DNA of 54,067 nucleotides from a virus. Each line of letters opens with the position of its first letter. Position 1 is the first letter of the stretch. Positions 3,519 through 38,439 of this stretch are shown piece after piece. The stretch is taken from IMG/VR virus record IMGVR_UViG_3300033153_006334, positions 1 to 54,067 of that record, one strand, 5' to 3'. The position numbers were made by a program, and so were the translations under genes. Below the pieces are notes generated by a model, which was given only the letters and a program-made list of their open reading frames with translations, was not told the DNA's origin and did no database searches.

Positions 3519-4151
3519 ATGGCAACTACTGGTCCCACAACTAAAGATACCACCACAATAGCGTTGGGGTTAGCGCAGATAAGAATTGGAAGTTCTTCTG
3601 AGAATTTAACGAAACAGTTCCCTGTTCTTGCTGCATCTGATTCTATTGGTGCTCTTGCAAACACAAAGTTTGTTGGTAATGCTGAGTTCTTCAAACTGGA
3701 ATCTGGTTATCCTATGCTTGAAGATGCCGTGTTCCCACTAAGGGAGTCTGCTGCTCTTGAATGTGCGTTTAAAGAGATGACTCCTTTTAACTTGGCACTT
3801 GCAAGGGGTGTCGACCCAACTGGTGCTGAATATTCTGAAGCACATACAGGGTCTATTAAACTTGGTACGCTTGCTGCTCCGGTTAGTATTCGTATGGAAG
3901 CCATCTATACATATCCTGATGGAACAAATACGTTGAATATTATTTTTCCGAGAGCCCAAGTTTCCGGTTCTATTGAAATGGACTTTGCACCTGAAGAGCC
4001 TGCCGCCGTTGCTGTTGTGATTGAAGCAAAACGGGCAGACAGTGAAGTAGTAGGTGGAAACGCTGCATGGGATGATAAGCCCATTGGACAAATCCTGTGG
4101 AATGATGGTAGCACGTTTACCACCACCACAACTACGACTACCACAACATAA
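3519..4151 (+). CDS. major tail tube protein with a ten-Thr C-terminal tail
   Basis: A 210-residue protein preceded by a very strong AAAGGAGG site at 3505-3512, as expected for a highly made structural protein. It is rich in beta-type segments, Ala and Gly, and sits directly before the tail chaperone pair, the position of siphovirus tail tube proteins. An N-terminal segment rich in Thr and a final run of ten Thr flank the folded part. Tail tubes are stacked hexamer rings, so each ring would expose six Thr tails. Function is assigned from context and composition. The Thr tail is read directly from mixed ACC, ACA and ACT codons. Confidence 0.75.
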   Translation: MATTGPTTKDTTTIALGLAQIRIGSSSENLTKQFPVLAASDSIGALANTKFVGNAEFFKLESGYPMLEDAVFPLRESAALECAFKEMTPFNLALARGVDPTGAEYSEAHTGSIKLGTLAAPVSIRMEAIYTYPDGTNTLNIIFPRAQVSGSIEMDFAPEEPAAVAVVIEAKRADSEVVGGNAAWDDKPIGQILWNDGSTFTTTTTTTTTT

Positions 4152-14510: not shown

Positions 14511-15719
14511 ATGAAAATTGCACTATTAACAAATTTTATGGAGTTTCAACCTGGGTATTCCTTAACAGGAATTGTAAAAGACCAAGCTATTATGTTATCA
14601 AGGTTTGGTCATGACGTTCATCTGTTTGTAAATTCAGGATACAATGGGGAAGAGTTTGATGAATCTGTCACACTCCACAAGAGCATCCCTTTTACTCATT
14701 TAATAGATTATGAATCTGTTAATGATGTCACCGATGAACACAAGGAGATTATTGAGCAATGCAGGAAGAATTTAGTTGAGGAGTTAGCAGATTTTGACTT
14801 TGCTTTCACGCATGATTTCGTGTTTACAGGATGGTTTATGATATATGGACAAGCATGTAAGCAAGCTACTATAAGCCTTCCTAATTTACGCTGGCTGCAT
14901 TGGATACATTCAGTGCACAAGCTTGTCTTCCCAAACAATACGGACAGAATCAGAGTTGCAGAACAGTTTAGGGGATTTTCTGACGATGTTAGAATTATCC
15001 CACACATAAAGGATTTGCGAACGTTCTTTGATTTTAATGAGGACACTTGTAGATTTATTGATAAGTACCCTGCGATAATGCAAGCAGATGTTGTTCAGGT
15101 TCTTCCTGCTTCGGTTGATAGACTATCTTCCAAACGAGTCAAGGAAGTTATGAACATGTTTGCCGAAATGAAGATGCAAGGAAAATCGGTATTTCTTGTT
15201 ATTGTAAATCAATGGGCAACCGGAAGGAAGCAGAAAGAAGACACCAATATATATCGAACACACGCAATGAAAAATGGATTGATCGACCAGAAGGAATTTG
15301 CTTTTACTTCGGATTTTGAATCACCAAAGTTTGATGTTGGTATTCCAAAAGAAATGCTGAGAGAATTATTTCAGTGTTCTAACCTATTTATCTTTCCAAC
15401 AAGAGAAGAGAGTTTCGGATTAGTTGTTCCTGAGGCTTCATTGGCAGGGGGAGTTTTTATGGTTCTGAATAAGTCGTTGCAGATGCAAGTTGAAATCAGT
15501 GGTAACTTTGCGACATACTTTGAGTTTGGTTCACATACACAAACATTCAACCCCGATGACCCAGCAAAGTATTATCACGACCTTGCTATGATTACTATTG
15601 CAAGGATGAAAGAGAATGAATCGGTAATGACTAAGACGTTCATGCGACAAAGGTATAACATGGATAATCTTTACAGGACATTTTATGAACCAACAATGAT
15701 GGAATTGAAAGGGATATAA
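14511..15719 (+). CDS. glycosyltransferase, GT4 type (GT-B fold)
   Basis: A 402-residue protein with the layout of GT4 enzymes, which move a sugar from a nucleotide donor with retention of configuration. The C-terminal half carries the donor-site element LFIFPTREESFGLVVPEAS at about residues 290-308, including the E-x7-E motif of the family. The N-terminus (KIALLTNFMEFQPGYSLTG) has the open loop usual for this fold. AAAGGAG lies nine bases before the ATG, after a 39-base gap, so this may begin a new translational unit. It opens a block of thirteen glycan genes in the late structural gene set. The acceptor is unknown. Confidence 0.88.
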   Translation: MKIALLTNFMEFQPGYSLTGIVKDQAIMLSRFGHDVHLFVNSGYNGEEFDESVTLHKSIPFTHLIDYESVNDVTDEHKEIIEQCRKNLVEELADFDFAFTHDFVFTGWFMIYGQACKQATISLPNLRWLHWIHSVHKLVFPNNTDRIRVAEQFRGFSDDVRIIPHIKDLRTFFDFNEDTCRFIDKYPAIMQADVVQVLPASVDRLSSKRVKEVMNMFAEMKMQGKSVFLVIVNQWATGRKQKEDTNIYRTHAMKNGLIDQKEFAFTSDFESPKFDVGIPKEMLRELFQCSNLFIFPTREESFGLVVPEASLAGGVFMVLNKSLQMQVEISGNFATYFEFGSHTQTFNPDDPAKYYHDLAMITIARMKENESVMTKTFMRQRYNMDNLYRTFYEPTMMELKGI

Positions 15720-15720
15720 A

Positions 15721-16308
15721 ATGACAGGACATAGAACTTGGTTGGGGGATGAAGGGTTGAGGATTGTTGCTTGCCATCAGGAAGGGGAACTGGCAATTAT
15801 CAGAGATGTTGTTCTTGATTTTAAGCCAGAGTTAATGGTTGAATTAGGAACATGTGTTGGTGGAATTACTTTACTATTGCATCAATGTTTCCCCGATATC
15901 CCTTTGCACTCTTTTGATAATAAGTCAATAGTGAAGAGTGCAAAGAAAGCTCGGAGCAGTCTTACTATTGAGCTACTTGAAAGATTTCAGAAGGAGGCAT
16001 TCAATGAAAATGTTGAGTTCCATGTTGCAGATGTGTTTGCAGATGGGAAGTATATTGTTGAGTGCCTTCTTACAAGTGAGAAAAGAAAATTCCTTTACTG
16101 CGATAATGGCAATAAGGACATGGAAATAAATCTGTTTGCAAAATGTTTATCTATAGGAGATGTACTTGGAGTGCATGATTGGGGATTTGAAGTTGGATGG
16201 GAATGGGCAGGAGTAAAGGAAACCCTGTCTTCTTTTGAAGAGATGAGTATAAATGAAACGCTCAGAGATAAATTTTTAACAGCAAGATTTTTTAGGAAAA
16301 TAAAATGA
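15721..16308 (+). CDS. class I SAM methyltransferase, CmcI-like
   Basis: A 195-residue protein with a Rossmann-type SAM motif at about residues 39-49 (MVELGTCVGGI), an acidic residue ending the next strand (HSFDN) and a later KRKFLYCDNGNK segment. The order of these elements resembles the cephalosporin hydroxylase-like and macrocin-type methyltransferases that act on small molecules or sugars. It starts one base after the GT4 stop and overlaps the next gene by four bases. A likely role is to methylate a sugar of the glycan made by this cluster, but the target is not shown by the sequence. Confidence 0.75.
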   Translation: MTGHRTWLGDEGLRIVACHQEGELAIIRDVVLDFKPELMVELGTCVGGITLLLHQCFPDIPLHSFDNKSIVKSAKKARSSLTIELLERFQKEAFNENVEFHVADVFADGKYIVECLLTSEKRKFLYCDNGNKDMEINLFAKCLSIGDVLGVHDWGFEVGWEWAGVKETLSSFEEMSINETLRDKFLTARFFRKIK

Positions 16309-16994
16309 ATAAATTTGAAGTAGTAATACCAGTTGTTAATGTTGATTTATTGGTTAATCTTTTTGATAGCATATCTATCAATACTTTGTTGCCAAGAAAA
16401 ATTATTATAATAAATAATACTGGTAGCTCAACTAATTGGTTATTTAATAGAGCGGTTCCTTTTCTTAATAAAAAAATAACTGTTTACGTTTACTACTCAA
16501 AAACAGGACTTTGCAATGAATCAATAAATCTTGGCATTACTAAACTGTCGAAAGACTGTGATTATGTCAGCGTTTTGAATGATGATATCGTTCTTACTAA
16601 AAATTTCTTTCAGAGAAATGCAGACTTGTTACAGGATAAAGCTTGTGGTGTGTCTTGTCCTTTTACTGTTCACTCTATGGATGAGTTAAAAATAGGGGAA
16701 GTTGAAAAGCAAGTGATGAGAAAAAGAGAAGGGTGGGCACTCACAATAAAGAAAGATGTGCTTGATAAAATTCCTTTGTTTCCATCTGAAAGAATAGCCA
16801 CATTTCATTGGGATGATTGGATTTGGTTTCATACATGCAAAGATTTGAATTTTTATTGGCTAAAGGACAGAGGAAACATGGTCTTTCATCATGTAGGGTC
16901 TTCGGTAGCTAAGTTAGGTTTTAAAAAACACAAAGCAAGAGAGCGTCTTGAGTTTAATAAAATAGGTCAAGAAAAAAAGTGGGGTAGAACATGA
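16305..16994 (+). CDS. glycosyltransferase, GT2-like (GT-A fold)
   Basis: A 229-residue protein starting in the ATGA overlap with the gene before. The N-terminus (FEVVIPVVNV) is the first strand of a GT-A fold, and VSVLNDDIVL at about residues 86-95 is the acidic metal- and donor-binding motif. A later segment around HWDDWIWFH is the usual acceptor side. At 229 residues it is near the short end for a GT2 enzyme, so it is probably a single soluble domain. It forms a tightly overlapping run with its neighbours. Confidence 0.8.
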   Translation: MNKFEVVIPVVNVDLLVNLFDSISINTLLPRKIIIINNTGSSTNWLFNRAVPFLNKKITVYVYYSKTGLCNESINLGITKLSKDCDYVSVLNDDIVLTKNFFQRNADLLQDKACGVSCPFTVHSMDELKIGEVEKQVMRKREGWALTIKKDVLDKIPLFPSERIATFHWDDWIWFHTCKDLNFYWLKDRGNMVFHHVGSSVAKLGFKKHKARERLEFNKIGQEKKWGRT

Positions 16995-18112
16995 GATTAG
17001 TTTTTCTTTACACAAGTTTTGGTCCCAATCCTGTGGGTTCTAATACATACTGGAACCCAAGGGACATTACGCAGAATTTTTATGCTGTGAATATAAATGG
17101 TCTTTTATCTGAAGGCTATTTTTATATGCTTAAAAGGATGTTAGAGGAAAAGGTAGTAGATGACTTAGTTATTTTCATTGAATCAAGTAAGTCTCCCGGC
17201 TGTGTTCACTTGCAAGGAATCCCATGTTATGTCACTCCTCAGATAGAATATATCGAAGAGTTTTTAAGGGAGGACGATGTTATCTTTGCGAGAGGTGGAT
17301 TTAGAACTTGGTTTCCTTTCCTTGAGAAAATGAAAGCACAGAAAAGATGGCTTCTTTTGTATGCAGCAAATACAGGAAGGCAGAGATGGAAATTTTGGGA
17401 TGTTATTTTCGATGATCTAACAGGAAAGCATTCTTATGACATACACAATAGGTTCTTTTTCGATTTTAAGAAACCAATACATGAAGACATATTTTATCCA
17501 ACGAAAACAGAAAGGATTTATGATATTTGTATAGGTGCTTCTCATATACATGAGAAAAAAGGACAGTGGAAAACAGTCGAAGCAATAATTGAATATGAAA
17601 AGATGTTTGGTAAGAAATTAAAGTGCATCATGCCGGGGAGAGGGAACCGTGGAGTAAACACAACTAATATAAAAAATAAGGTGAGAGACTTCCACTTGGA
17701 TATCACTTTCCCCGGCATGGTTACAAGAGATGTTGTCTGTGAGATAATGAATCAATCAAAATTGTTTATGTATCTTGGTGGGGGTGGACAGAACGATAGA
17801 GGTCCCTTAGAAGCTTTGAGATGTGGAACTCCCATTATGATTGCCAATCCTCCCAATCATTCTCCTGTTGTTTATAGCAACCCACAAGTTTGTGGTGTAA
17901 TTGAGAACAGCGAAAACTTTCAATTGGTTGCTAATGAGATGCATGATGTATTAAAACAAACGAGTGAAGGGAAACGAGAATATGTTTCCAGTTATTTTCA
18001 ATCTTCTTGTGGGTTGAGTGAGGTTATCATTCCAGACATGAGAAAATTGTTTAATATTATAAGGGCAAATCCTGTGCCCAATGCAGAGACACTTAAAAAG
18101 GAGTATCTATGA
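16991..18112 (+). CDS. glycosyltransferase-like protein, GT-B fold
   Basis: A 373-residue protein with a GT-B-like plan. The N-terminal half ends in a linker near residue 175. The C-terminal half has IGASHIHEKKGQW (start of the donor domain), then a Gly-rich loop and the segment DRGPLEALRCGTPIMIA at about residues 270-286, which matches the donor-binding end of GT4-type enzymes. The classic E-x7-E is replaced by a shorter arrangement, so it may be a divergent member. It overlaps the genes before and after by four bases each (ATGA). Confidence 0.75.
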   Translation: MRLVFLYTSFGPNPVGSNTYWNPRDITQNFYAVNINGLLSEGYFYMLKRMLEEKVVDDLVIFIESSKSPGCVHLQGIPCYVTPQIEYIEEFLREDDVIFARGGFRTWFPFLEKMKAQKRWLLLYAANTGRQRWKFWDVIFDDLTGKHSYDIHNRFFFDFKKPIHEDIFYPTKTERIYDICIGASHIHEKKGQWKTVEAIIEYEKMFGKKLKCIMPGRGNRGVNTTNIKNKVRDFHLDITFPGMVTRDVVCEIMNQSKLFMYLGGGGQNDRGPLEALRCGTPIMIANPPNHSPVVYSNPQVCGVIENSENFQLVANEMHDVLKQTSEGKREYVSSYFQSSCGLSEVIIPDMRKLFNIIRANPVPNAETLKKEYL

Positions 18113-18774
18113 AAATACCAATAGGAATACTTACATACAGAAGACCGGAGTATCTTAAAAGAACGATTGAATCTTTTTTAGATTTGAATAGTGATAGATT
18201 AGATATGTTTCCTTTACTTCTACTTATACAAGGAGGCTATGATAAGGAAACTGATTTGGCAATTGAACAGTTTGAAAAGCATATGTACAGGATATATATT
18301 TCGGAAGAAAATTTAGGCTGTGCAGCAGGGTATAATAAAGTAATGGGGTATGCTTTGTCAAGAGAAACGGATTTGGTTATGCATTTGCAGGATGATTGGG
18401 AATCGAGAGAATCTTTATCAAAATATATTGATGAAATTATCAATGTATTTGAGGAGCATCAGGACATTGGTTATATGCGATTGAGAGCTTGGAGATTAGG
18501 CACCCGTGTCTGTGGAAAGAATAGAATAACGAGAGAGGGAATTAAATATGATAGTGTATCTGAGAATATAGCCAAATCTACTGCCCATTTCACACTCAAC
18601 CCAACAATCATAAGAAGTGTTGTTTTAAGGAAAATGCTCCCAATCACAAAAGAACTAAATGCTATGCACAAGTACCATGAACTTAACATGAAAGCTGCTC
18701 AGTTATATGCCAATTGTTTTCGTCACATAGGAGCAGATAGGGCAATGGAAGAGGGCAAAAGGTGGATAAAATGA
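18109..18774 (+). CDS. glycosyltransferase, GT2-like (GT-A fold)
   Basis: A 221-residue single-domain enzyme. It begins with IPIGILTYRRPEYLKRTIES, a common start of GT2 proteins, and has MHLQDDWESR at about residues 89-98, where the paired Asp bind the donor and metal. ENLGCAAGYNK at about residues 65-75 is the usual nucleotide-side loop. The same QDDW or EDDW form occurs in the enzyme at 22597-23325, so the two may be related copies. It overlaps both neighbours by four bases. Confidence 0.85.
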   Translation: MKIPIGILTYRRPEYLKRTIESFLDLNSDRLDMFPLLLLIQGGYDKETDLAIEQFEKHMYRIYISEENLGCAAGYNKVMGYALSRETDLVMHLQDDWESRESLSKYIDEIINVFEEHQDIGYMRLRAWRLGTRVCGKNRITREGIKYDSVSENIAKSTAHFTLNPTIIRSVVLRKMLPITKELNAMHKYHELNMKAAQLYANCFRHIGADRAMEEGKRWIK

Positions 18775-19494: not shown

Positions 19495-20202
19495 ATGAGC
19501 ATTGTGGACAGTTCAGAGAAGAGAAAAAGGATATTATCAGAGCTTGAAACAACGATTTTGGATTTAGGAGTTGATGACGTTCCTGTTTTTGGTGGGAAAT
19601 ACGAAGGAGGGATTCATTTACAACAGGTTTCTGATGAGATATCTGAGTGCATTTATGATTTGGTAAATATGAACTTCAATGTAAAGTTGAATTTTTTAGA
19701 GATTGGTGCTGCTGCTGGTGGGAATACATATCTGTTTAATCACTTTTTTAATTTTGAAAACATAGCAATTATTGATGATAACAAACATAAAAAATATGCG
19801 CTCAGACAAGAAATATTAAAAGACGTTCCTCACAGTGAGTTTATTGGTAATTCTCACTCGGAGCAAGCAGTAAAATTTTTGGAAAATCTTCAATGTAATT
19901 ATAACATAATATTTATTGATGGTGACCATAGTTATGAGGGGGTGAAGCAGGATTTTGAAACGTACAAGAAATTTTTAAACTACAGTGGTTTTGTTATTTT
20001 CCATGACACATATTTTTGTGAAGGAGTTAGACGCTTTGCAAATGAGTTAAAAGAAGAGGCACTTTTGTTTAATCCCCACCACAATGATATACAGCCGATA
20101 AAATTCTTTGGTGAGTATATAAGTGAAGGGAAAAGAAAATTAGGAATTACAGTTTTTCAAATTTATTCAATCCCAAAATGGAGGGAAAACGATGGAATGT
20201 AG
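19495..20202 (+). CDS. class I SAM methyltransferase (Methyltransf_24-like)
   Basis: A 235-residue protein with a SAM motif at about residues 66-76 (LEIGAAAGGNT) and the family mark IFIDGDHSYEGVKQDF at about residues 139-154, followed by a strand ending in FHDT. The IDGDHSYEGV form is typical of methyltransferases found in sugar and polysaccharide gene clusters. It starts 22 bases after the preceding gene, with TAGGAG as ribosome site, and overlaps the next gene by 11 bases. The substrate is unknown. An O-methyl sugar is the most likely target from its neighbours. Confidence 0.8.
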   Translation: MSIVDSSEKRKRILSELETTILDLGVDDVPVFGGKYEGGIHLQQVSDEISECIYDLVNMNFNVKLNFLEIGAAAGGNTYLFNHFFNFENIAIIDDNKHKKYALRQEILKDVPHSEFIGNSHSEQAVKFLENLQCNYNIIFIDGDHSYEGVKQDFETYKKFLNYSGFVIFHDTYFCEGVRRFANELKEEALLFNPHHNDIQPIKFFGEYISEGKRKLGITVFQIYSIPKWRENDGM

Positions 20203-21358
20203 AATATGCAATACAACTCTGAAGAAGTTTTTAGATTTAGGGAAACAGCCAATCGCCAATAAGTTTTTGAAAGCAGATGAACTTTTGAATGAGAGATACT
20301 ACAAACTTGAGATGTTCTTTTGTCCCGAGTGTTATACGGTGCAGATAGGAAACTGTCCCTCAAAAGAAGATGTATTCAATGATGAGTATGCCTTTTATTC
20401 TTCAACTTCTGAATACATGAAACGACACTTTGAAAATCTGGCAGTGGGGATAAAAGAGAGTAAGATGCTGCCAAGAAATGGTTTTATTGTTGAGATAGGA
20501 AGTAATGATGGTACATTTCTAAAAAACTTTAGGGATTATGACCATTTAGGAATTGAGCCATCGAGAAATGTTTGCCTTGCTGCGAGTGAAAATGATATGG
20601 TGTGTTTGAACAGATTTTTCAATGAAGAAACTGCGAATTGGATTATTGATATGTATGGCAAAGCTGATGTGATAGTCACAACAAATTGCTTTCCACATAT
20701 GATTGATAGAGGGTCAGTACTCAATGGGATAAGGAAGTTGATGAAACCTTCAGGAATATGGATAAATGAAGAAGCATATTTACAGAATATAATAGGCAAA
20801 TGCTCTTATGACCAGTTCTATAATGAGCATATTTATTTTTCTTCCATTGCTTCATTTAAAAAAGTTGTGAAAATGTATGGCATGAACTTATGGAATATGC
20901 GATTAATTCCGGTACATGGTGGGTCTATTAGATATTATACCACACATGGAGATATAGCGCCTTCTCATCAATTTAGTATGAATGATTATGAAGTCAAAGA
21001 AAACTTAAATCTGTTTTGTAGGTTTGAGCAGTTTGCAGAAGATGTTAAAACAAGACGGCATATATTTTTAGATAAGATGCTCGAATTAAAAGGGGATGTT
21101 GTTGGATATGGAGCAACAGCGAAAAGCACAACAGTATTAAATTATTGTAAGATAGGTAATAGTTTAATAAGCAGGATATATGATACGACACCTATCAAGC
21201 AGGGAAAACTTAGTCCGGGGATGCATGTTCCAGTTGTACCTTATTATGAATTTGAAAGAGATAATCCTAAAAATGTGGTTATGTTTGCTTGGAATCATAT
21301 GGAAGAGATTATGGAAAAAGAAAAGGGAAAGGATATCAATTGGATTCTACCAATATAA
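20192..21358 (+). CDS. NDP-sugar C-methyltransferase (TylCIII / NovU-like)
   Basis: A 388-residue protein with the three-part plan of sugar C-methyltransferases. A zinc-binding N-terminus has CRIC at residues 3-6 and CPEC at 44-47. The SAM domain has VEIGSNDGTFL at about residues 98-108, and FYNEHIYFSS near residue 210 carries the Glu-His pair of this family. The C-terminal domain has VVGYGATAKSTTVLNY. These enzymes add a methyl branch to carbon 3 of a keto-deoxysugar nucleotide. No dTDP-sugar biosynthesis genes are in the window, so the host must supply the precursor or the genes lie elsewhere. GGAGGG precedes the ATG. Confidence 0.85.
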   Translation: MECRICNTTLKKFLDLGKQPIANKFLKADELLNERYYKLEMFFCPECYTVQIGNCPSKEDVFNDEYAFYSSTSEYMKRHFENLAVGIKESKMLPRNGFIVEIGSNDGTFLKNFRDYDHLGIEPSRNVCLAASENDMVCLNRFFNEETANWIIDMYGKADVIVTTNCFPHMIDRGSVLNGIRKLMKPSGIWINEEAYLQNIIGKCSYDQFYNEHIYFSSIASFKKVVKMYGMNLWNMRLIPVHGGSIRYYTTHGDIAPSHQFSMNDYEVKENLNLFCRFEQFAEDVKTRRHIFLDKMLELKGDVVGYGATAKSTTVLNYCKIGNSLISRIYDTTPIKQGKLSPGMHVPVVPYYEFERDNPKNVVMFAWNHMEEIMEKEKGKDINWILPI

Positions 21359-22020
21359 ATAAATATGTGTATATACATATTCCAAGATGTGCTGGTACCT
21401 TTACTAGAGATGTTCTTAGGAATACTTTTGGAATAAAAAGAGTGTATCGAGATTTAGCCTATAAAAAGGAAGCCAAGCTGCACAAATCACAAAACAAGGA
21501 AGAACCATTTATTGTCAACCGTTTTGTTTTGTGTGAACGAGTGTACCCAAAAAGATTCCACATTATTGACGAAAAAAACTATGACATTATCTTTGGTCAT
21601 TTTACAATAAGAAAATATGGAATGATGGGTTGGCCTTTTATTACTTTTTTGAGAGACCCAGTTGAAAGAGTTATTTCTGAATACAATGCTTTGAAGAGGG
21701 AAAATGAAAAATATTTTAATCTAAGCGTTGTAGAATATGCGAGTCTGAATCGAAACTTGCTAACATGGATGCTAAATGGCAGTATTGATGACCTTTCTTT
21801 TATCGGATTTGTAGAGAAGTATGAGGAGAGTTTAGAAAGACTTGAATCTTTTTTAGGCAAGAAAGTAATAAGAATTGGTAGAGCGAGAAAAAACCATAGT
21901 AATTATAAAAACAGAAAATACAAGAAATATATGCCTACTGATGAAGAGAGAAAGATAATTGAATCTTTTAATAAATTAGACATGGAGTTGTATAGGGAAG
22001 CTTATGAAACCATTAGTTGA
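21340..22020 (+). CDS. carbohydrate sulfotransferase (family 2-like)
   Basis: The likely start is TTG 21340 (226 residues), six bases after GGAAAGGA. ATG 21289 would add 17 residues but overlap the gene before by 70 bases. The protein begins with YVYIHIPRCAGTFTRDVL, the 5'-phosphosulfate loop that binds the donor PAPS. TFLRDPVERVISEYN at about residues 101-115 is the 3'-phosphate binding motif. Both are the hallmarks of sulfotransferases that put sulfate on glycans. Such an enzyme is unusual in a phage structural region and suggests a charged glycan. It depends on host PAPS. Confidence 0.8.
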   Translation: MDSTNINKYVYIHIPRCAGTFTRDVLRNTFGIKRVYRDLAYKKEAKLHKSQNKEEPFIVNRFVLCERVYPKRFHIIDEKNYDIIFGHFTIRKYGMMGWPFITFLRDPVERVISEYNALKRENEKYFNLSVVEYASLNRNLLTWMLNGSIDDLSFIGFVEKYEESLERLESFLGKKVIRIGRARKNHSNYKNRKYKKYMPTDEERKIIESFNKLDMELYREAYETIS

Positions 22021-22594
22021 TATTTACAAGGACAGTTTTTTCAGAACGAGAAACAAATTAATGTGGCGAGTTCCGATAGTGTGTGAGCCAATAGTGAACG
22101 AATTTGAACCACATTCAATTGTTGATGTGGGATGTGGGATAGGCGATTATGTTATGGGATTTCTTGGAGCCGGAGTTCCTTTTGCTCATGGAATAGAGGG
22201 CTCAGAAAACTGCATTCGCCATTTGGTTGTAAATCCAAAATATATAACCATTGCAGATTTACGGACACAACTTGATTTGCAGAAGTCCTTTGAGGTAGCA
22301 ATGAGCTTTGAAGTAGCAGAACATATCGAGCCAGAGTATGCAGATATTTTTTTGCTTAATCTTACCAACTTAGCTAATCGAATATTGATAACTGCGGCTC
22401 CTCCCGGACAAGGGGGACACTATCACGTTAACTGCCAACCAAAAGAATACTGGATAGACAAATTCAATCTTCTTGGATACGACAATATTCAAGAGAGAGC
22501 CGAGAACATTAAGAAGTTTTGGGAGCCTTGGAAACACAGGAAAGAAATATATGGAGGCTATTATAACAATCTACTGTATTTTGAGAGGAGGTAG
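22004..22594 (+). CDS. class I SAM methyltransferase
   Basis: A 196-residue protein with the SAM motif VDVGCGIGDYVMGF at about residues 40-53 and a second acidic strand end (GIEGS). FEVAEHIEP at about residues 103-111 is the post-II element common in methyltransferases, and ITAAPPGQGGHYHVN follows. The overall pattern is that of Methyltransf_11 or 23 enzymes. The ATG overlaps the sulfotransferase end by 17 bases with AGGGAAG before it. The target is unknown, and a sugar or lipid-linked glycan is likely from context. Confidence 0.8.
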   Translation: MKPLVDIYKDSFFRTRNKLMWRVPIVCEPIVNEFEPHSIVDVGCGIGDYVMGFLGAGVPFAHGIEGSENCIRHLVVNPKYITIADLRTQLDLQKSFEVAMSFEVAEHIEPEYADIFLLNLTNLANRILITAAPPGQGGHYHVNCQPKEYWIDKFNLLGYDNIQERAENIKKFWEPWKHRKEIYGGYYNNLLYFERR

Positions 22595-22596: not shown

Positions 22597-23325
22597 ATGG
22601 ATATTGATGTGACGATTACAGCTTGCAGAAGACCAAAAGTTTTGGCAAGAACGATGGTTTCATTTTATGAAAATATGTTATCTGGTCATAAATGTAGGGC
22701 AGCTATCAATATTGACCCTATAGGAGATGGGGATGAACAGGAAACATTGGTTAATTGTCAAATAGCTTGCAATATTGGAGCTTATAGATTGCCAAAACAA
22801 GCAAACTTTTCAAAAGCTTTTAAATGGGTTTGGCAAAACAAAGGGGATGCAGAATTTGTATTGCATTTAGAAGATGATTGGGAATTATTGAAGAAAGTAA
22901 ACATAGAACACATGGCAAATATGTTAAGAAGACATCCGAAACTTGCTTTGCTTAGATTGCCTCAGTTTAAAGCTGATGGGGACAAGATGAAAAATTGGAA
23001 CAAGTTCTTCCCATGGAATGGGGAGTACTTTGAGTGTCCAGAAGAGTTGAAGATGTCAGTTGGCTTCTGTGGACATCCATCACTTATAAAAAGGGAGTTC
23101 ATTGATAACACTGTAAATTATATTGATACAAACAAAAACCCTGAGAAGCAGTTTCACAGAGGTCCCAAAGAGATAATGGAAGAAGTTGCTAAATGGAGTT
23201 ATGGTGTTTATGGAACACCTAAAGAGTCTGCATTTATCCGAGACATAGGAAGAAAATGGATGATTGAAAACAAATGGAAGAAGAAAGGAAGCAAAGCATA
23301 TTTTATGGAGTGGGAGAAAAACTAA
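22597..23325 (+). CDS. glycosyltransferase, GT2-like (GT-A fold)
   Basis: A 242-residue GT-A enzyme. The first strand is DVTITACRRPKVLARTM and the donor motif is LHLEDDWELL at about residues 88-97. A later GFCGHPSLIKREF is the usual region near the acceptor. It has the same N-terminal pattern (strand, RRP, helix) and EDDW motif as the enzyme at 18109-18774, which suggests an old duplication. It starts two bases after the methyltransferase stop, with GGAGG before the ATG. Confidence 0.85.
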   Translation: MDIDVTITACRRPKVLARTMVSFYENMLSGHKCRAAINIDPIGDGDEQETLVNCQIACNIGAYRLPKQANFSKAFKWVWQNKGDAEFVLHLEDDWELLKKVNIEHMANMLRRHPKLALLRLPQFKADGDKMKNWNKFFPWNGEYFECPEELKMSVGFCGHPSLIKREFIDNTVNYIDTNKNPEKQFHRGPKEIMEEVAKWSYGVYGTPKESAFIRDIGRKWMIENKWKKKGSKAYFMEWEKN

Positions 23326-23337
23326 AAGGAGGTTATT

Positions 23338-24171
23338 ATGAATTACTGCGACCCGGAAGGATTTAAAAATGAATTAAGAGAGATCAAAAAGAAAGGGAGA
23401 GATACTTTCTTTTCTTGGTTTGATGGAGGTGAGACAGTAGACGGAGCATACGAGAAAGCAGAGGATATTTTTTATCGTTTAATGCTGCCTTGGGCTAAAA
23501 AACACTTGGGAGATTTGAGCAATAAAATCTCTTTGGATATTGGCTATGGTGGGGGCGGACAAGTCCTTTCGGCTTCCGAGCGTTTTAAGTATGCTACAGG
23601 GTTGGATGTACATGATGAAATCGGCTTTGTTGAGGCAGAGCTACGAAAAAGGCAGGGTGGAGAAAATAAAAACACTGCTTTGTTTATATCTAATGGTGAT
23701 ACTATTCCTATGGACAGAGATTCAATTGATTTTATTCATTCATGGGTTACCTTTCTCCATCTTGGAACTATTGAAGTTGTGGAATCTTATCTAAAAGAGA
23801 TGTTCCGAGTTATGAAAGAGGGAGGAGTTGCAGTTATCTTTTTTACTCGTTTAGTTCGGAGTAATCGAGTTCAAAGTTTGAAGCAGTATACGGCAGACTT
23901 GAGTAAGGAACAGACAAATAAACTTGGATACAGGGAAGGAGGTCCCTTAACAAGAGTCAATCTACCAAATTTTGTCTTGTCCTTATGGAAGATGCAAGAG
24001 CTTGTTAGAAAACATGGTTTCAAACTATTGGATACAACACGCTCACAGGATGGGAAGAATAAGATATATGGTCAGCATGGAGTGGTGTTTCAGAAACCTA
24101 AAAAGGAAAAGTTGGATACAAGGAAAAAGAAACCAATAATCATCAAAGTAAAGAAAGGAAAAAAGAAATGA
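23338..24171 (+). CDS. class I SAM methyltransferase with Lys-rich tail
   Basis: A 277-residue protein. The SAM motif is LDIGYGGGGQVLS at about residues 66-78, with GLDVHDE after it and a DFIHSWVTFLHL segment, as in Methyltransf_11 enzymes. After the catalytic domain comes a C-terminal tail of about 30 residues rich in Lys (KKKPIIIKVKKGKKK), which may bind nucleic acid, acidic glycan or membrane. AAAGGAGG precedes the ATG. It overlaps the last transferase gene by four bases. The acceptor is unknown. Confidence 0.8.
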   Translation: MNYCDPEGFKNELREIKKKGRDTFFSWFDGGETVDGAYEKAEDIFYRLMLPWAKKHLGDLSNKISLDIGYGGGGQVLSASERFKYATGLDVHDEIGFVEAELRKRQGGENKNTALFISNGDTIPMDRDSIDFIHSWVTFLHLGTIEVVESYLKEMFRVMKEGGVAVIFFTRLVRSNRVQSLKQYTADLSKEQTNKLGYREGGPLTRVNLPNFVLSLWKMQELVRKHGFKLLDTTRSQDGKNKIYGQHGVVFQKPKKEKLDTRKKKPIIIKVKKGKKK

Positions 24172-25094
24172 GCAAACTATCAATCATTATGCCATTTTGT
24201 AATGAATTTCCCCAATTGATGTTTACTGTTCAAGCAGTAGCACAGTCACTTTTGGGTAGAGTCGATTTTGAACTAATCGCAATTAACAACTACTGCGAAG
24301 AAGTCAAAGCACAGAACAGAGAGCAAGACAAAGGTGGGGAAACAATAAAAGCATGTCAGCGAGGGAACAAATGGCTAAAGTATCTTGAATATACAGATAA
24401 GCTTTCTCATTGGCAGTCAAAGAATTTGGGAGTCCAACATTCAACAGGGGATATTTTGTGGTTTGTCGATGCCCACTGTGCTATCTCAAGAGATGGATTG
24501 TTTGACATGTTTCATTATTATATTAAAAATCAAGATAGATTAAATGGAACAATTCATCTTCCATTGACATATAAAATACTTGAATGGCACAGACTCATTT
24601 ACAAGCTGGCTGGGGAAATCGAGCAAGGAAATCTACATTACTCCTTTACAGGATACCGTGCAGCAGATGAGCCCTACGAAGTACCTTGTATGTCAACGTG
24701 TGGAATGATGATATCAAGAGAAATCTACGATAAATTGGGAGGCTGGCCTGTTGAGCTTGGAATATACGGAGGTGGAGAGAACTTTATTAACTACACTCTT
24801 GCTGTTTTAGGAATGAAAAAATGGATAATGACGGGAGGCGGAACGCTGTTTCATCATGGGGAGAAACGAGGCTATCATTGGAACGGTGACGATATGATAA
24901 GGAACAGATTTATTGCTAATTATATGTTTGGTGGGGACAAGTGGTTATCCTTAATGAAAGAAAATCGTAAAGGGAGAAAAGAAGTATTGACAAAAATCTA
25001 TGAAGATGTTAAGGCAACCTGTAAAAAACACAGAGAGTTTATTAAAACTAAACAGGTAATTTCTATTGAAGAATGGCTAAACAAATGGAGGTGA
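24168..25094 (+). CDS. GT2/GT27-like glycosyltransferase resembling polypeptide GalNAc-transferases
   Basis: A 308-residue GT-A enzyme. The N-terminus (LSIIMPFCNEFPQLM) and the donor motif WFVDAHCAISRDGL at about residues 98-111 match polypeptide GalNAc-transferases, where the form is DxH followed by Cys. Later, GMMISREIYDKLGGWP and YGGGENFINYTL at about residues 195-207 match the Gly-Gly-Glu-Asn segment of the same family, followed by GTLFHHGEKRG. These enzymes start mucin-type O-glycosylation by putting GalNAc on Ser or Thr. Some bacterial GT2 enzymes share the GEN element, so peptide specificity is inferred. The Ser/Thr-rich virion proteins nearby would be natural acceptors. Confidence 0.75.
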   Translation: MSKLSIIMPFCNEFPQLMFTVQAVAQSLLGRVDFELIAINNYCEEVKAQNREQDKGGETIKACQRGNKWLKYLEYTDKLSHWQSKNLGVQHSTGDILWFVDAHCAISRDGLFDMFHYYIKNQDRLNGTIHLPLTYKILEWHRLIYKLAGEIEQGNLHYSFTGYRAADEPYEVPCMSTCGMMISREIYDKLGGWPVELGIYGGGENFINYTLAVLGMKKWIMTGGGTLFHHGEKRGYHWNGDDMIRNRFIANYMFGGDKWLSLMKENRKGRKEVLTKIYEDVKATCKKHREFIKTKQVISIEEWLNKWR

Positions 25095-27288: not shown

Positions 27289-28998
27289 ATGGCTAATGGA
27301 TTTGTAACAACAACCCCAAGTGTAAGGCATGGTACAAACGATGTACAGTTAGATGCTGGATTCGTTGTGTGCCAGAAATTTACTTGTCCGGGCAGTGGCG
27401 CACAGGATATTTCAGAAATTGGGGCATGGGTAGAAGATTCTGGATTTGAATTTAGATTGGCTATTTTTACAGATGATTCTGGAAATTCTTGCCCAGAAGT
27501 AATAGTTGCTAATTCCGAAAGTGCCACTTTATCTTCAGAAGCATCTATGGCAAAAACGAGCCATACATATGGAACAAATCCACAGCTTACGGGTGGGGTT
27601 GATTATTGGATTTGTGTATTTTTTGATAATTTAATTAATATAGATTATTTAAATAGCTCAGGTGAAAATTCTTTATATGTTACTGGCTATACAGCATATA
27701 CTTGGCCTACCGCTACAGATTGGCATACTAATACACCTGCTGCTACTTTCGACCTTGGTATTTACGCTGTTTATGCAGCTAGTGGTGAAACCACTACATC
27801 ATCTACAACCACTTCAAGTTCAACTACAACCACTTCAAGTTCAACTACCAGTACCATAAGTTCTACATCATCTACAACTACTTCAACTACAACCACTTCG
27901 AGTTCAACTACAACCACTTCAACCACATATCCACCAGTAATATTTGATGAAGGATTTGAGGGAATAGGATATGAAGAAGATAATTGGACAGTAGAATCAG
28001 GGATTGGCACTATTAACCCAGATTCCCCTGTTTCTAATGCTGGTTCTCCTACAACGTGGGGGGATAAGTGTTGCTATATAGATATAGTAGAACAGACATA
28101 TTTATATCAGCAAGTTGCTCCAAATGCCAAATATTGGAGAGTTGAGACGGTTGTTACTTCGGAGAATATTGATGATGGGCAAGAATTTATTATTTGTTCT
28201 GGGTACACATATGTTATAGGATTTGCTTGGAGTGTTGGTTGGTATAGGAATTTTTCTGGTGACATTCAATGGCGTATGAAATGTCGGCATGATGGAACAA
28301 GTAACTATTACTATGGATTAAAAACACCAAGACTAGACACACGTTATCGAATAGAAGTTAAATGGGACGCTGATACAGATACATGGGCGTGGCGACTTGA
28401 TGGAATAAATCAGCCAAATAATATTGATGATTCTGAACCTGTAACGTCTGAGGGGACACTCACTGATAACCACGTGCCCGACACCGGAGCAATATTTCTT
28501 GGTTCTGGGGATTTAACCTCTGCAAGTATCTATGTTGATTTGGTATCTGCTCGTACTTTTGATTGGGTTGGTGGAGACCCAATAACTACTACTACAACAA
28601 CTTCTTCAACAACTACAACAACTAGCCCACCAGTATTAGAAGGATATGCTTTTGGAGAACAAAATCCAACTGATGAAAACCAAGAATCTTGGGCAACATG
28701 GTCAGATGGAGCAGCAGGAAGCCCAACAATAATTGGTGATGCTGATTGGGGGCAATTGAAAGTCTGGTTAAATGCTTCAGGACAAAGTGCTGTTAAAGAT
28801 TTAGGAAGCACAAAAAACAGAATAATCGTAGTAAAAAGGGATAAATATGGCAGCGGTTCTGGTAGTATAACTATCTATATAAGAGGACAAGCAACATCAT
28901 TTACCCAAGATGAAGGTAGTCCTTCTTGGGAAGAATATACCACACCCGTAAATAAAAATTGGAGATACATACAAACAAGGATAGAATATACAACATAG
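27289..28998 (+). CDS. three-domain fibre-like protein with two Ser/Thr linkers
   Basis: A 569-residue protein. An N-terminal beta-rich domain covers about residues 1-165. A Ser/Thr tract follows at about 166-212, then a second beta domain at about 213-430, with DEGFEGIG and RVETVVTSENIDDG as in concanavalin-like sandwiches. A short Thr/Ser linker lies at about 431-445, then a C-terminal beta domain to the end. Both tracts use mixed Ser and Thr codons. The build, domains on flexible Ser/Thr stalks, resembles mucin-linked modular adhesins. It sits just before the Ser/Thr-only gene. Confidence 0.75.
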   Translation: MANGFVTTTPSVRHGTNDVQLDAGFVVCQKFTCPGSGAQDISEIGAWVEDSGFEFRLAIFTDDSGNSCPEVIVANSESATLSSEASMAKTSHTYGTNPQLTGGVDYWICVFFDNLINIDYLNSSGENSLYVTGYTAYTWPTATDWHTNTPAATFDLGIYAVYAASGETTTSSTTTSSSTTTTSSSTTSTISSTSSTTTSTTTTSSSTTTTSTTYPPVIFDEGFEGIGYEEDNWTVESGIGTINPDSPVSNAGSPTTWGDKCCYIDIVEQTYLYQQVAPNAKYWRVETVVTSENIDDGQEFIICSGYTYVIGFAWSVGWYRNFSGDIQWRMKCRHDGTSNYYYGLKTPRLDTRYRIEVKWDADTDTWAWRLDGINQPNNIDDSEPVTSEGTLTDNHVPDTGAIFLGSGDLTSASIYVDLVSARTFDWVGGDPITTTTTTSSTTTTTSPPVLEGYAFGEQNPTDENQESWATWSDGAAGSPTIIGDADWGQLKVWLNASGQSAVKDLGSTKNRIIVVKRDKYGSGSGSITIYIRGQATSFTQDEGSPSWEEYTTPVNKNWRYIQTRIEYTT

Positions 28999-29011: not shown

Positions 29012-30472
29012 ATGGCAATAATACAAGATGAAGGAGGTTTTGAAATACAAGATGAGTCGGGGGTAGGCATTGCTGATGAAGCGGGAGGGACATCTACAAG
29101 TACAACTACTACCACTTCTTCAACAACTAGTTCAACTACATCAACAATGTCAACTACATCAACAATGTCAACTACCAGCACTACCGAATTTGGTGCCACA
29201 ACACACTCAACAACAACCAGTTCCACTAGTTCAAGTACAAGTACCACCTATCCATTTAGTTTAGTTGACGACCTTGTATTGGCATGGAGTTCAACAACAA
29301 CTAGTTCTTCAACTACCAGTTCTTCAACTACCAGTTCTTCAACAGCAAGCACCAGTTCTTCTTCAAGTACCACAAGTTCTACTGCTTCAACTGCGAGTAC
29401 CACCAGTTCAACACACACTACCAGTTCAACAGCCAGTTCAACTACCACTTCTTCCAGTACTACCAGTTCCACAGCCAGTACCACAAGCTCAACACATTCC
29501 ACAATTAGTACCACATCCAGTACTTATTCGTCTACATCATCTACCGCCTCGACAATAAGCACCACAACTTCGAGTTGTAGTTCCACTTCCAGTACAGCCA
29601 GTACCACAAGCTCAACTGCCTCAACTACTAGTTCAACGCACACTTCTTCCAGTTCCACAGCGAGTACCACTTCGTCCACTTATAGTACCATAAGCACCAC
29701 AAGTTCGACTGCGAGTACCAGTTCTACCGAATCCACAACATCTACTTATAGTACCACAAGCTCGACTTCGCCCGGAGATACGACACACTCAACTACCAGT
29801 TCAACATACAGTACCACAAGTTCTACACACACTACAACTTCAAGTACAGCCAGTACCACAACTTCGACACACAGCACAACATCCAGTACAGCGAGTACCA
29901 CATCCAGTACACATACGACTACCAGTTCAACTGCGAGTACTTTGTCTACCACAAGTAGCACACACAGTACCACAACTTCGAGTTCATTTTCGACTACCAG
30001 TTCAACGCATACTACAATAAGTACCACTTCGAGTACTTATTCAACGATAAGTACCACCAGTTCTACTCATAGTACAAGTTCGAGTACCGCTTCGACTACC
30101 AGTTCAACGGAGAGTACGACCTCAAGCTCAATGAGTACAACGAGCAGCACACATACAACTACCAGTAGCTCAAGCTCAACTGGCAGCACTACTTCAAGCT
30201 ATTCAAGCACGACCAGCAGTCATTCTACGACATCTACAAGCCAAACAAGCTCAACAGTGTCAACTACCAGCAGCACGGCGAGTACCACATCCAGTACAAT
30301 GACAACTCAGACAGGAGGGACAACTACAAGTTCAACAACCACTTCAAGTTCGAGTTCAACAACCAGTTCAACGTATATACCATCTGACCCATTATGTATT
30401 TTTAAGCATGAGGATACCAAAGTAAGATATAAACATAAAGTAGTACAAACAGTTTTCAAGGAGGTGATCTAA
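29012..30472 (+). CDS. mucin-like Ser/Thr repeat protein
   Basis: A 486-residue protein. After a 27-residue acidic start (IIQDEGGFEIQDESGVGI), about 430 residues are almost only Ser and Thr, broken every six to eight positions by one His, Ala, Tyr, Glu, Met, Val or Ile. The last 30 residues are normal (IPSDPLCIFKHEDTKVRYKH). No enzyme motif is present. A polypeptide of this composition is disordered, and when O-glycosylated it would become a stiff mucin-like rod. The glycan gene block lies about 4 kb upstream. It overlaps the next gene by one base (TAATG). Confidence 0.8.
   Translation: MAIIQDEGGFEIQDESGVGIADEAGGTSTSTTTTTSSTTSSTTSTMSTTSTMSTTSTTEFGATTHSTTTSSTSSSTSTTYPFSLVDDLVLAWSSTTTSSSTTSSSTTSSSTASTSSSSSTTSSTASTASTTSSTHTTSSTASSTTTSSSTTSSTASTTSSTHSTISTTSSTYSSTSSTASTISTTTSSCSSTSSTASTTSSTASTTSSTHTSSSSTASTTSSTYSTISTTSSTASTSSTESTTSTYSTTSSTSPGDTTHSTTSSTYSTTSSTHTTTSSTASTTTSTHSTTSSTASTTSSTHTTTSSTASTLSTTSSTHSTTTSSSFSTTSSTHTTISTTSSTYSTISTTSSTHSTSSSTASTTSSTESTTSSSMSTTSSTHTTTSSSSSTGSTTSSYSSTTSSHSTTSTSQTSSTVSTTSSTASTTSSTMTTQTGGTTTSSTTTSSSSSTTSSTYIPSDPLCIFKHEDTKVRYKHKVVQTVFKEVI
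29090..30380 (+). repeat. degenerate Ser/Thr-coding repeat tract
   Basis: A 1.3 kb stretch of DNA built from short degenerate repeats that encode SSTx(S/T)TT-like units. The single x position is His, Ala, Tyr, Glu or Met. Units mix TCN and AGY serine codons and all four Thr codons, so the repeat is conserved as protein more than as DNA. Because it is repetitive it may also vary in length by recombination. Shorter tracts of the same kind occur at 1384-1435, 12093-12290, 12740-12911, 27780-27930 and 37763-37837. Confidence 0.85.
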
Positions 30473-30810
30473 TGGCTTCAGTAGAATCTTTTGAAAAACA
30501 GAATTATGAGTCTTTCTTTATTGCGGCTGATTTAGTAGACGTATTAGAGACGGGGGAAATAATAGACTTAGGAAGTACAACCATTGTGGCGGTAAAAGAG
30601 GACGGAACGACAGATGCAACAAACATTGTTTTGCAGCCTCTAACAAAAACATTAGATGACTCCCCCGATGGTGGAAGTAATAATATGGTCAAGATTCGAG
30701 TCCAAGCAGGTGTGGAGGCAGATTCTCCATATAAGATAACATTCAAGATTCCCACAAGTTTGAACAACAAATGGGAAGTGGATGTTAAGCTGAAAATAAA
30801 GGAGCTTTAA
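30472..30810 (+). CDS. small beta-rich fibre-associated protein (paralogue of 38110-38439)
   Basis: A 112-residue protein after a strong AAGGAGG site, overlapping the mucin-like gene. The C-terminal half (DSPYKITFKIPTSLNNKWEV, ending in KLKIKEL) matches the protein at 38110-38439 almost position for position. It is an acidic, beta-rich small domain, probably part of a fibre or appendage. Both copies follow a gene with a Ser/Thr tract by a few genes or directly, which hints at a shared module. The exact function is unknown. Confidence 0.65.
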   Translation: MASVESFEKQNYESFFIAADLVDVLETGEIIDLGSTTIVAVKEDGTTDATNIVLQPLTKTLDDSPDGGSNNMVKIRVQAGVEADSPYKITFKIPTSLNNKWEVDVKLKIKEL

Positions 30811-36780: not shown

Positions 36781-37050
36781 ATGGTGAACAACGATGAAAG
36801 AAGGATTAAGGCTGGCGAAAGAGAAGTAGTTAGAGCTTCAGAAGAAGTTAATAGACGCAATGCGGAATCGGCAATACAGTTTGCTAATGGTACCAGAAAG
36901 ATGGTGTTAGAAATGCGGGCTCTGTTTGACACTCTGCAAAATCATGTTATAAATCAGCTTGCACAGATAAATGAATTGCGGGAGCAACTGTCTAAACTTC
37001 AACAGGAAATTTATGCAAGGGGAACAGTGAGGAATAGCGATGGCGATTAG
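36781..37050 (+). CDS. coiled-coil protein
   Basis: An 89-residue protein that is helical along its length, with alternating basic and acidic residues (KAGEREVVRASEEVNRRN) and a heptad-like C-terminal part (QINELREQLSKLQQEIY). It starts nine bases after the fibre stop with AGGAGG before ATG and overlaps the next gene by 11 bases. It may form a trimer or dimer stalk next to a fibre protein, or act as an assembly factor. No named family is recognised. Confidence 0.65.
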   Translation: MVNNDERRIKAGEREVVRASEEVNRRNAESAIQFANGTRKMVLEMRALFDTLQNHVINQLAQINELREQLSKLQQEIYARGTVRNSDGD

Positions 37051-37837
37051 CGTAAATCCAATGACCAAAGAAGTTATCATTCCACAAGTTGATCTGTCCT
37101 TGGTTACAGGTACCCTATATGAGTTGGACGTAAACGATCTTAGATTGTGGTGTAAGGATTGGGAAGACAATTCAGACGGCGGGATAACTCACGAAAGGAC
37201 TAATGACCATTTTACGGAATATACGGTTGCTGGTGTTACATATGCAAGAGCTATTATTTTTCTGCCACCATACAATTTTACTTTTGAGGATGGTCAATAT
37301 TCTGTGCGCCTTACAGGAGCCAATACGAATTTGTTTGATGTGGAAAATAGAATTTTAAATCAAAATCAAGTACAGCTTATCCCGAGCAACTCAGCCGGAT
37401 TGATTGTTGTAACACAGGGGTCAGGAGTTACAGAGCAAGACAAAATAGACATCATAGAAGGTGCGGCTGCTGCTGTCTTTGAAGAACAGACGGCAGACCA
37501 CAAAGAGGATGGCTCATATGGTGCAGAATTGGCAACCAAAGACGATATTGCTGCAAGTTCTTCTGATATTTCTAATGCTGTTTGGGAACATGAAAATGCT
37601 ATTTTTATAAAAGACATAGAAGGTGGAAGATGGAAGCGTGATGGCACCCAGATGATTTTTTATAAAGCTGATAATGTAACAGAGGTAGCACGTTTTGATT
37701 TAAAGAAATTTGACGGAACTCCCGCAACTGAAAGTGATGACGAAGTGGCAGAAAGAGTTCGGGTAACAACAACCAGTACAACACATTCAACAACCAGTAC
37801 AACACATTCAACAACCACTACATCAACAACGGCATAA
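37040..37837 (+). CDS. fibre-like protein with Thr/Ser/His C-terminal tail
   Basis: A 265-residue protein. The first 115 residues form a beta-rich domain with YARAIIFLPPYNFTFEDGQY and an LTGANTNLFDVENR segment, a pattern common in phage fibre base domains. A helical linker follows, with an Ala-rich EGAAAAVFEEQ and a DISNAVWE helix. A further strand set ends near residue 242. The last 25 residues are a Thr/Ser tract with two His, ending in Ala. This tail has two perfect copies of a 21-base unit. It belongs with the Thr-tailed proteins of the tail tube and tip. Confidence 0.7.
   Translation: MAISVNPMTKEVIIPQVDLSLVTGTLYELDVNDLRLWCKDWEDNSDGGITHERTNDHFTEYTVAGVTYARAIIFLPPYNFTFEDGQYSVRLTGANTNLFDVENRILNQNQVQLIPSNSAGLIVVTQGSGVTEQDKIDIIEGAAAAVFEEQTADHKEDGSYGAELATKDDIAASSSDISNAVWEHENAIFIKDIEGGRWKRDGTQMIFYKADNVTEVARFDLKKFDGTPATESDDEVAERVRVTTTSTTHSTTSTTHSTTTTSTTA
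37769..37810 (+). repeat. two tandem 21-bp units coding TTSTTHS
   Basis: The 21-base unit at 37769-37789 is repeated without change at 37790-37810. Each unit codes TTSTTHS in frame. Perfect identity suggests recent duplication, unlike the degenerate repeats in 29090-30380. It shows that Thr/Ser tails can grow by unit duplication. Confidence 0.85.
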
Positions 37838-37840: not shown

Positions 37841-38107
37841 ATGAGTATAATCACCAAGGGATATGGAGTAGCAAGTAGGATTATCACTAAAGGATATGGT
37901 GTGGTAACTACTGCACCTTCTGTTTTACTCGCTGTTGCTCGAAAGTTCTTTAAAACGGAGCGAGAAGTCTATTTTAGAAGAGATTCTATCGACTCCTATG
38001 CTCGTAGAATAGTGGTAGATTCCTATTGCTATGCGGAAGCTCAAGTATTTGAACGAAGAGAAGCTATGGACACATACGTTCATGCCAGAAAACAGGACGA
38101 AAGGTAA
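37841..38107 (+). CDS. small hypothetical protein with doubled ITKGYG motif
   Basis: An 88-residue protein. It begins with IITKGYG, and the same seven residues return about ten residues later after a short spacer (GVASR). The remaining part is basic with Arg, Tyr and Ser in RRDSIDSYARR and a final helix. Small phage proteins with repeated KGYG or RGFG motifs near fibre genes are known to me, but their role is not clear. It begins three bases after the Thr-tailed fibre stop and ends two bases before the next gene. Confidence 0.6.
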   Translation: MSIITKGYGVASRIITKGYGVVTTAPSVLLAVARKFFKTEREVYFRRDSIDSYARRIVVDSYCYAEAQVFERREAMDTYVHARKQDER

Positions 38108-38109: not shown

Positions 38110-38439
38110 ATGAAAAAATTTAAGAAACAGATATCTGAAGAGTTCTTTGCACATGGCAGTATATTGAATGTACAAGAAGATGACGAAACAATAGTTCTTG
38201 GTACAAGTTCTATCACTGCTGTTGATAATGTGGCAACTGATGCTACCACAGATGTATTGGAAGGCGGAACAGAAGAATTAAGGGACGACCCAGATGGCAG
38301 TTTTACAAACAATGTTCTTGCTATGCGAGTAAAAGCGGGAACTGAAGCTCTTTCTCCATACAAAATAACATTCAAGATAGTAACGAGTAAGGGCAATAAA
38401 TATGAAATAGATATACAAATGACAATCAAAGAACTTTGA
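38110..38439 (+). CDS. small beta-rich fibre-associated protein (paralogue of 30472-30810)
   Basis: A 109-residue acidic protein. Its end (SPYKITFKIVTSKGNKYEI, closing with MTIKEL) matches residues 77-112 of the protein at 30472-30810, and the middle (EELRDDPDGSFTNNVLAMRV) matches as well. The two copies lie in the fibre region about 7.6 kb apart, so a local duplication is likely. It has a plain ribosome site (AAAGG before the ATG) and no signal peptide. The role is unknown but probably linked to fibre assembly or display. Confidence 0.65.
   Translation: MKKFKKQISEEFFAHGSILNVQEDDETIVLGTSSITAVDNVATDATTDVLEGGTEELRDDPDGSFTNNVLAMRVKAGTEALSPYKITFKIVTSKGNKYEIDIQMTIKEL

Follow-up and report, generated by a model that had tools for sequence, protein, structure and literature searches.

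A Ser/Thr-rich fibre stalk, Ser/Thr-tailed virion proteins and a linked GT27-like enzyme suggest O-glycosylation of the virion in uncultured tailed phages

A Ser/Thr stalk gene with heptads kept at the protein level

The 54,067-nucleotide stretch of viral DNA analysed here (IMG/VR record IMGVR_UViG_3300033153_006334, hereafter the window) carries a plus-strand gene whose product consists largely of Ser and Thr, within a series of tail, fibre and glycan genes (Table 1). The 486-residue product contains 180 Ser and 179 Thr (359/486, 74%), in agreement with the initial annotation, which had described a protein made almost only of these two residues; the tract between the short ends, estimated there at about 430 residues, measures 429 and is 83% Ser plus Thr. 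The maximal Ser/Thr segment score of 92 lies far above chance, 20 codon-shuffled windows giving 5–7. The composition was thus as described, but the tract is ordered rather than random. It follows the heptad x-S-T-T-S-S-T, in which x is Ala, His, Tyr or Ile; a hydrophobic stretch of a few residues, YPFSLVDDLVLAW, breaks it at a position that relatives share; and it is one of several such tracts in the window. Pairs of non-Ser/Thr residues spaced seven apart number 30, against 8.3 ± 2.4 expected (z = 8.9; 2000 shuffles, highest 17). The same lag-7 test on the tract of the nearest relative, G001, returned 42 pairs against 12.6 expected (z 9.7). Pro occupies 2 of the 429 positions.

Table 1 Features of the window discussed in the text
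Position	Strand	Feature	Basis or remark
770..1435	+	Head-closure-like protein, Ser/Thr C-tail TTSTSTTTSSTTTTTA (1385-1432)	Name from position
3519..4151	+	Tail-tube-like protein, C-terminal ten Thr (4119-4148)	Name from position
9618..12911	+	Tal-like tail protein, F5/8-type C sugar-binding domain; Ser/Thr tracts 12087-12299 and 12738-12908 (C-terminal)	Name from position
14511..15719	+	GT1-like glycosyltransferase, most widely shared cluster gene	
16305..16994	+	GT2-like glycosyltransferase	
16991..18112	+	GT1-like glycosyltransferase	
18109..18774	+	GT2-like glycosyltransferase	
19495..20202	+	Methyltransferase (Methyltransf_24)	
20192..21358	+	Sugar C-methyltransferase-like (Methyltransf_13/14)	
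21289..22020	+	Sulfotransferase (Sulfotransfer_2)	
22004..22594	+	Methyltransferase, core of shared cluster	
22597..23325	+	Cluster gene without Pfam match, common to tailed phages; probable GT-A-type transferase	
23338..24171	+	Methyltransferase (Methyltransf_11)	
24168..25094	+	GT27-like glycosyltransferase, candidate polypeptide O-transferase	
27289..28998	+	Multi-domain fibre-like protein, Ser/Thr linkers 27781-27945 and 28579-28644	
29012..30472	+	Ser/Thr stalk protein gene	ATG to TAA, 486 aa; short N-terminus, Ser/Thr tract, short C-terminus
29090..30376	+	Ser/Thr tract, 429 aa, 83% S+T, heptads xSTTSST	Composition and lag-7 test
30377..30469	+	C-terminal repeats of about 9 residues (FKHEDTKVRYKHKVVQTVFKEVI)	Conserved in kind in relatives; last codons hold AAGGAGG ribosome site of next gene
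30472..30810	+	112-aa protein after Ser/Thr gene	Fused to Ser/Thr protein C-terminus in G004 and G008
37040..37837	+	Ser/Thr C-tail protein (tail 37763-37834), start of second module	
37841..38107	+	Repeat protein, 9-residue spacing, second module	Read by eye
38110..38439	+	Paralogue of 112-aa protein, 50%	

The identity of synonymous codons at lag 7 in the tract is 0.247, compared with 0.254 for shuffled codons. Because the heptads exist at the protein level while the synonymous codons beneath them are scrambled, selection acts on the protein and maintains the heptads, and the scrambling likewise argues against recent DNA slippage or an assembly artefact. An assembly error had been raised by the initial annotation, and a DNA-level origin, whether by misassembly or as a slippage repeat, would be in keeping with the low complexity of the tract and with its different length in relatives (429 versus 557 residues). 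Against this, the protein-level heptads are written in scrambled codons, orthologues occupy the same place in several metagenomes, and the capsid, neck and tube proteins of dozens of records bear short tails. The homologue check, through conservation in relatives together with codon scrambling, ruled out the assembly error, and we give an artefact of any kind next to no credence. At the end of the gene (30440-30475), AAGGAGGTG serves twice: it codes for the conserved C-terminal motif FKEV[VI] and is the ribosome site of the following gene, so the conservation of this motif may lie partly at the DNA level.

Relatives of the stalk gene and its 112-residue partner

A direct search with the Ser/Thr protein yielded no relative that could be confirmed, presumably since the tract is masked as low-complexity sequence, and relatives were therefore reached through neighbouring genes. 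The orthologue in G001 (L007:7356-10130) has 924 residues, a 557-residue Ser/Thr tract, a similar C-terminus and an extra N-terminal domain of about 340 residues, and it is followed by a copy of the 112-residue protein that is 82% identical to that of the window. Through this small protein four more records (G002, G004, G007 and G008) were found, with a giant Ser/Thr or Ser-only gene at its 5′ side and 9-residue repeats after the tract. Pfam and PHROGs left the 112-residue protein unnamed, and it has no clear relative in the PDB. Its fusion to the Ser/Thr protein in two of the records suggests that the two proteins are probably parts of one fibre, and on our reading the 486-residue protein forms the stalk of a fibre that, in the window, has a short globular head or none.

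The window also holds a smaller second module (37040-38439) with the same order of Ser/Thr tail, repeat and 112-residue-type protein. The stalk of G002 (L072:10972-13053, minus strand) consists almost wholly of Ser, interrupted at about every eighth position by R, Q, K, I, L, N, F or Y, and this record is without any of the cluster enzymes of the window. In a separate part of the window (46283-47133, minus strand), an exonuclease-like ORF that is single in G001 (289 residues) is spread over two overlapping frames, with a frameshift or sequence error as the probable cause.

Ser/Thr tails and linkers on other virion proteins

The further Ser/Thr tracts of the window all lie in frame within plus-strand genes (Table 1). 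Head closure, tail tube and Tal are names assigned from gene order, and the capsid protein is named from Pfam and PHROGs; apart from the F5/8-type C domain of the Tal-like protein, neither database provided a name for the Ser/Thr proteins of the window. Because the window starts just past the place of the capsid gene, its own capsid tail falls outside the sequence. The major capsid protein of relatives, identified by Pfam (PF03864, 7e-32) and PHROGs (major head protein, 1e-43), terminates in Ser/Thr tails, TSTTTTTSSSSTTTTTA being one example, and their head-closure-like and tail-tube-like proteins are Ser/Thr-tailed as well. The tail peptides, among them TSTTTTSSSSTTTTTA and ASTTSSTHSTTSST, are candidate acceptors; their sequences vary, yet they are biased towards Thr (69–83% of Ser plus Thr) and often have Ala as the last residue. 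The expectation of one dedicated acceptor protein, put forward in the initial annotation, consequently did not hold, because Ser/Thr tails are carried by capsid, neck, tail-tube, tail-tip and fibre proteins too.

The tails on capsid, neck and tube proteins are all-or-none within a locus: among 81 loci with at least two readable proteins, some of them redundant, 70 were tailed, 11 untailed and 0 mixed. In phages with other backbones (a set that includes G067 and G072), tailed proteins match the PHROG families major tail protein with Ig-like domain, head-tail adaptor Ad1, head decoration, minor tail protein and head scaffold, and, judged from these matches, appear for the most part to be outward parts of the virion.

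Three side observations concern these proteins and their relatives. The Dit-like gene, a single ORF in the window (8884-9621), is split in G001 (L006:4293-5154) by a clean insert that encodes a Ser/Thr tail of 39-40 residues ending in TTTTTTA and then a stop, followed by an AGGAG ribosome site and by a new ATG, with homology kept in both halves; it thus seems that the gene acquired a tail in its middle and now yields two proteins. In other phages (L233, L252, L261 and L265), small proteins of 90–150 residues with Ser/Thr C-tails are encoded in tandem, two or three in a row, close to GT1-like enzymes. Relatives of the capsid protein (L410, L411 and L412) occur in metagenome-assembled-genome contigs named Melioribacter, Desulfobacterales and Bacteriovoracaceae, which are weak hints to hosts, the binning of viral contigs being unreliable.

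The glycan gene cluster and its GT27-like enzyme

A cluster of GT1-like and GT2-like transferases, methyltransferases and a sulfotransferase (14511-25094) lies inside the tail-fibre gene region. The initial annotation had placed the stalk gene next to a glycan block; the block is indeed upstream, but about 4 kb away with three genes between. The sulfotransferase recurs in G001 and, as a weak match, in G009 and G037, and its place in the cluster suggests glycans that would be sulfated and hence negatively charged. The GT1-like enzyme at 14511 was considered as a transferase of the Gtf type that acts on Ser-rich proteins, and support for this was not found. NDP-sugar epimerase genes lie at most 3 kb from the GT27-like gene in G056 and G068, and the window's own record yielded none. 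Among known isolates, the GT1-like enzyme has no relative, the GT27-like enzyme one distant relative (Tunturi_4) and the capsid protein two distant matches.

The GT27-like enzyme has 308 residues and a predicted structure composed of a catalytic domain plus helices only. A single-sequence search of the PDB pointed weakly to kinship with polypeptide GalNAc-transferases, as expected from its motifs. A profile of 25 homologues matched pp-GalNAc-T10 (1.3e-14) and T7 (4e-12), and also T12, T9, T4, T1 and T2, over residues 5–251, the catalytic domain; the other GT2 entries in this search matched mostly in the N-terminal half only. An AlphaFold2 model built from the 25-sequence alignment was confident (pLDDT 94.8, compared with 36.7 from three sequences), and the best 50 matches listed by Foldseek against the PDB were all polypeptide GalNAc-transferases (best E 1.6e-16, TM 0.79). 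D101, H103, H229 and the GGE motif are invariant in the 25 homologues and fall on the equivalent positions in human and other animal enzymes; by this alignment D101 and H103 of the DxH motif and the distal H229 match the metal ligands of GT27 enzymes.

The enzyme is therefore like the GT27 polypeptide GalNAc-transferases in its predicted GT-A catalytic fold, DxH motif, distal His and GGE(N) motif, and unlike them in having no C-terminal ricin-type lectin domain and no membrane anchor, an identity of 12–18%, and YGGGEN instead of WGGEN. Because the lectin domain is missing, we file the modelled protein as GT27-like and not as a member of GT27. It shares its predicted fold with the enzymes that initiate mucin glycans in animals, and we regard it as the candidate polypeptide O-transferase.

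Tails and cluster occur together

In the window lineage, 14 of 14 records with the cluster are tailed, and 0 of 6 untailed records of the same backbone carry it, a link that counts as one event because tail and no-tail form a single split on the capsid tree. Three tailed fragments in which no cluster gene was found (G029, G031 and G038) are counted in the corresponding Fisher test (p = 0.0008). The six untailed records were defined by homologous capsid, neck, tube or tape-measure genes, and five of them carry other glycosyltransferases. Outside this backbone, Ser/Thr C-tails are present in 8 of 9 cluster phages without a homologous capsid protein and in 0 of 13 cluster-negative relatives and isolates (Fisher p = 3e-5), a count that leaves out G067 (weak capsid match) and G059 (whose polymerase resembles that of the window lineage, to which it may belong) by a choice made after the tails were counted; with both kept, the figures are 9 of 11 and p = 4e-5. 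The 13 controls are unmatched for host and habitat and include Tunturi_4, where the first 48 kb contain no Ser/Thr tract despite a distant GT27-like enzyme. No Ser/Thr tails were seen in G069 and G059, which bear a GT27-like gene. Records with the GT1-like enzyme only also carry Ser/Thr tracts; the GT27-like enzyme is thus not always the partner, and the enzymes of the cluster may be interchangeable.

Many phage and bacterial proteins use Ser/Thr linkers. On this general ground the tracts could be unmodified, flexible, protease-resistant spacers and tails, with the glycosyltransferases acting elsewhere, and such a reading would accommodate both the phages that have tracts without a GT27-like enzyme and G002, with its Ser-rich tracts and no cluster gene. 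We consider it unlikely, because tails on three separate proteins come and go together and along with the cluster, because the association repeats in phages with unrelated capsid proteins, and because a cluster enzyme has the predicted fold of a polypeptide O-transferase.

The untailed records G046, G047, G048, G050 and G051 (L283-L293, L297-L298) carry a GT1-type protein of about 690 residues instead of the window cluster, near which some untailed relatives have a GT2-type protein of about 250 residues; tailed and untailed sub-lineages may use different surface chemistry. This different pair of glycosyltransferases would also suit a cluster that modifies the host envelope or the phage DNA, for superinfection exclusion or anti-restriction, with a shared host or habitat behind the co-occurrence, and phage glycosyltransferases are often so used, as suggested for Tweety gp104 (PMC2884959). 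The window cluster, however, sits among tail-fibre genes, its GT27-like fold points to a peptide acceptor according to the model, and no membrane pair of the GtrA/GtrB type was noticed in its Pfam results, so that a target in the envelope or DNA appears improbable.

A proposed mucin-type coat on the phage particle

Taken together, these observations lead us to propose, with a probability of roughly three in four, that the phage encodes a virion-wide O-glycosylation of its own particle and that the 486-residue protein is the stalk of one fibre; we infer that sugars are attached, which sugars these are, in what order the enzymes act and how the phage benefits. The proposal is based on the sequences and their conservation, on the all-or-none tails and their linkage to the cluster, and on the fold predicted for the enzyme. 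Several findings count against it, namely the scarcity of Pro in the tract (GalNAc-transferases usually favour Pro near the site), the window record without an epimerase, the single split on the capsid tree, the tailed fragments without a cluster, the untailed records with a GT27-like gene, Tunturi_4, and the Ser/Thr tracts of records with the GT1-like enzyme only. The suggestion of the initial annotation that a mucin-like protein is served by the sugar genes upstream is well supported computationally by the linkage of tails and cluster and by the GT27-like fold, but was too narrow.

In the proposed scheme, the acceptors would be the Ser/Thr C-tails of capsid, neck, tail-tube and tail-tip proteins together with the long fibre stalk. 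The GT27-like enzyme would add the first sugar to Ser or Thr inside the host cell, other glycosyltransferases of the cluster would lengthen the chains, and the methyltransferases and the sulfotransferase would cap them with methyl and sulfate groups. Where no epimerase is near, the sugar nucleotide could come from the host. Dense sugars might then give the particle a mucin-like coat and stiffen the stalk, and the heptad spacing may, as a guess, set the spacing of the sugars or keep the chain soluble. Candidate benefits are shielding, protease resistance, the spacing of receptor domains and the holding of particles in slime.

We lean, by a small degree, towards a wider form of this proposal, in which environmental tailed phages cover the entire virion (capsid, neck, tube, tip and fibres) with a mucin-type coat by means of a module that crosses lineages and includes a viral relative of the mucin-initiating GT27 enzymes of animals, with acceptor tails appended to any outward-facing virion protein. 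For a metagenomic finding, the system appears unusually well supported by sequence comparison and structure prediction. A few mycobacteriophages are known to glycosylate their virions; if the proposal is true, virion glycosylation is common in uncultured phages and uses an initiating GT27-like enzyme whose peptide tails are legible directly in the sequence, and Ser/Thr C-tails on capsid and tube proteins are a simple sequence sign of glycosylated phages.

Comparison with known systems

In the open-access literature, we found no paper on Ser/Thr tails or tracts, mucin-like phage proteins or a phage GT27-like enzyme. Like mucins, the window phage has hundreds of clustered Ser and Thr residues, short periodic repeats and a candidate dedicated O-transferase. 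Unlike the PTS domains of mucins, its tract is poor in Pro, its repeats are loose and seven residues long, and its O-glycans are putative. A long short-period repeat whose number varies among relatives is present in gp54 of Tweety, a phage that also encodes a glycosyltransferase (PMC2884959). In gp54 the repeat unit is an Ala-rich tetrapeptide in which the third codon position is invariant at two sites (PMC2884959), whereas the codons of the window tract are scrambled.

The closest parallel is found in mycobacteriophages. Two papers (PMC11256854, PMC12619734, citing Freeman et al. 2023) report virion glycosylation by phage-encoded glycosyltransferases in Che8, Rita and others, with glycans at the C-termini of the major capsid and tail-tube proteins. 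The initial annotation knew of no described phage system of its kind; these papers limit that view as regards virion glycosylation by phage enzymes. The same two protein classes are Ser/Thr-tailed here, the capsid class being seen in relatives, as the window's own capsid tail lies outside the contig. In contrast, the Che8 capsid protein ends in ...KTGS and its tube protein in ...YSDGS, with no Ser/Thr tract. Homology of the cluster with Che8 gp108-110 was not found: the GT27-like and GT1-like profiles gave no match above noise, and BLAST of all cluster proteins against gp108-110 returned E values no better than 0.08. In mycobacteriophages the sugars themselves are reported (PMC11256854, PMC12619734), whereas the system of the window is known from its genes, from which we infer the sugars. 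Judged from these reports and our sequence comparisons, the window system appears to reach the same places on the virion as that of the mycobacteriophages, through different acceptors and different enzymes.
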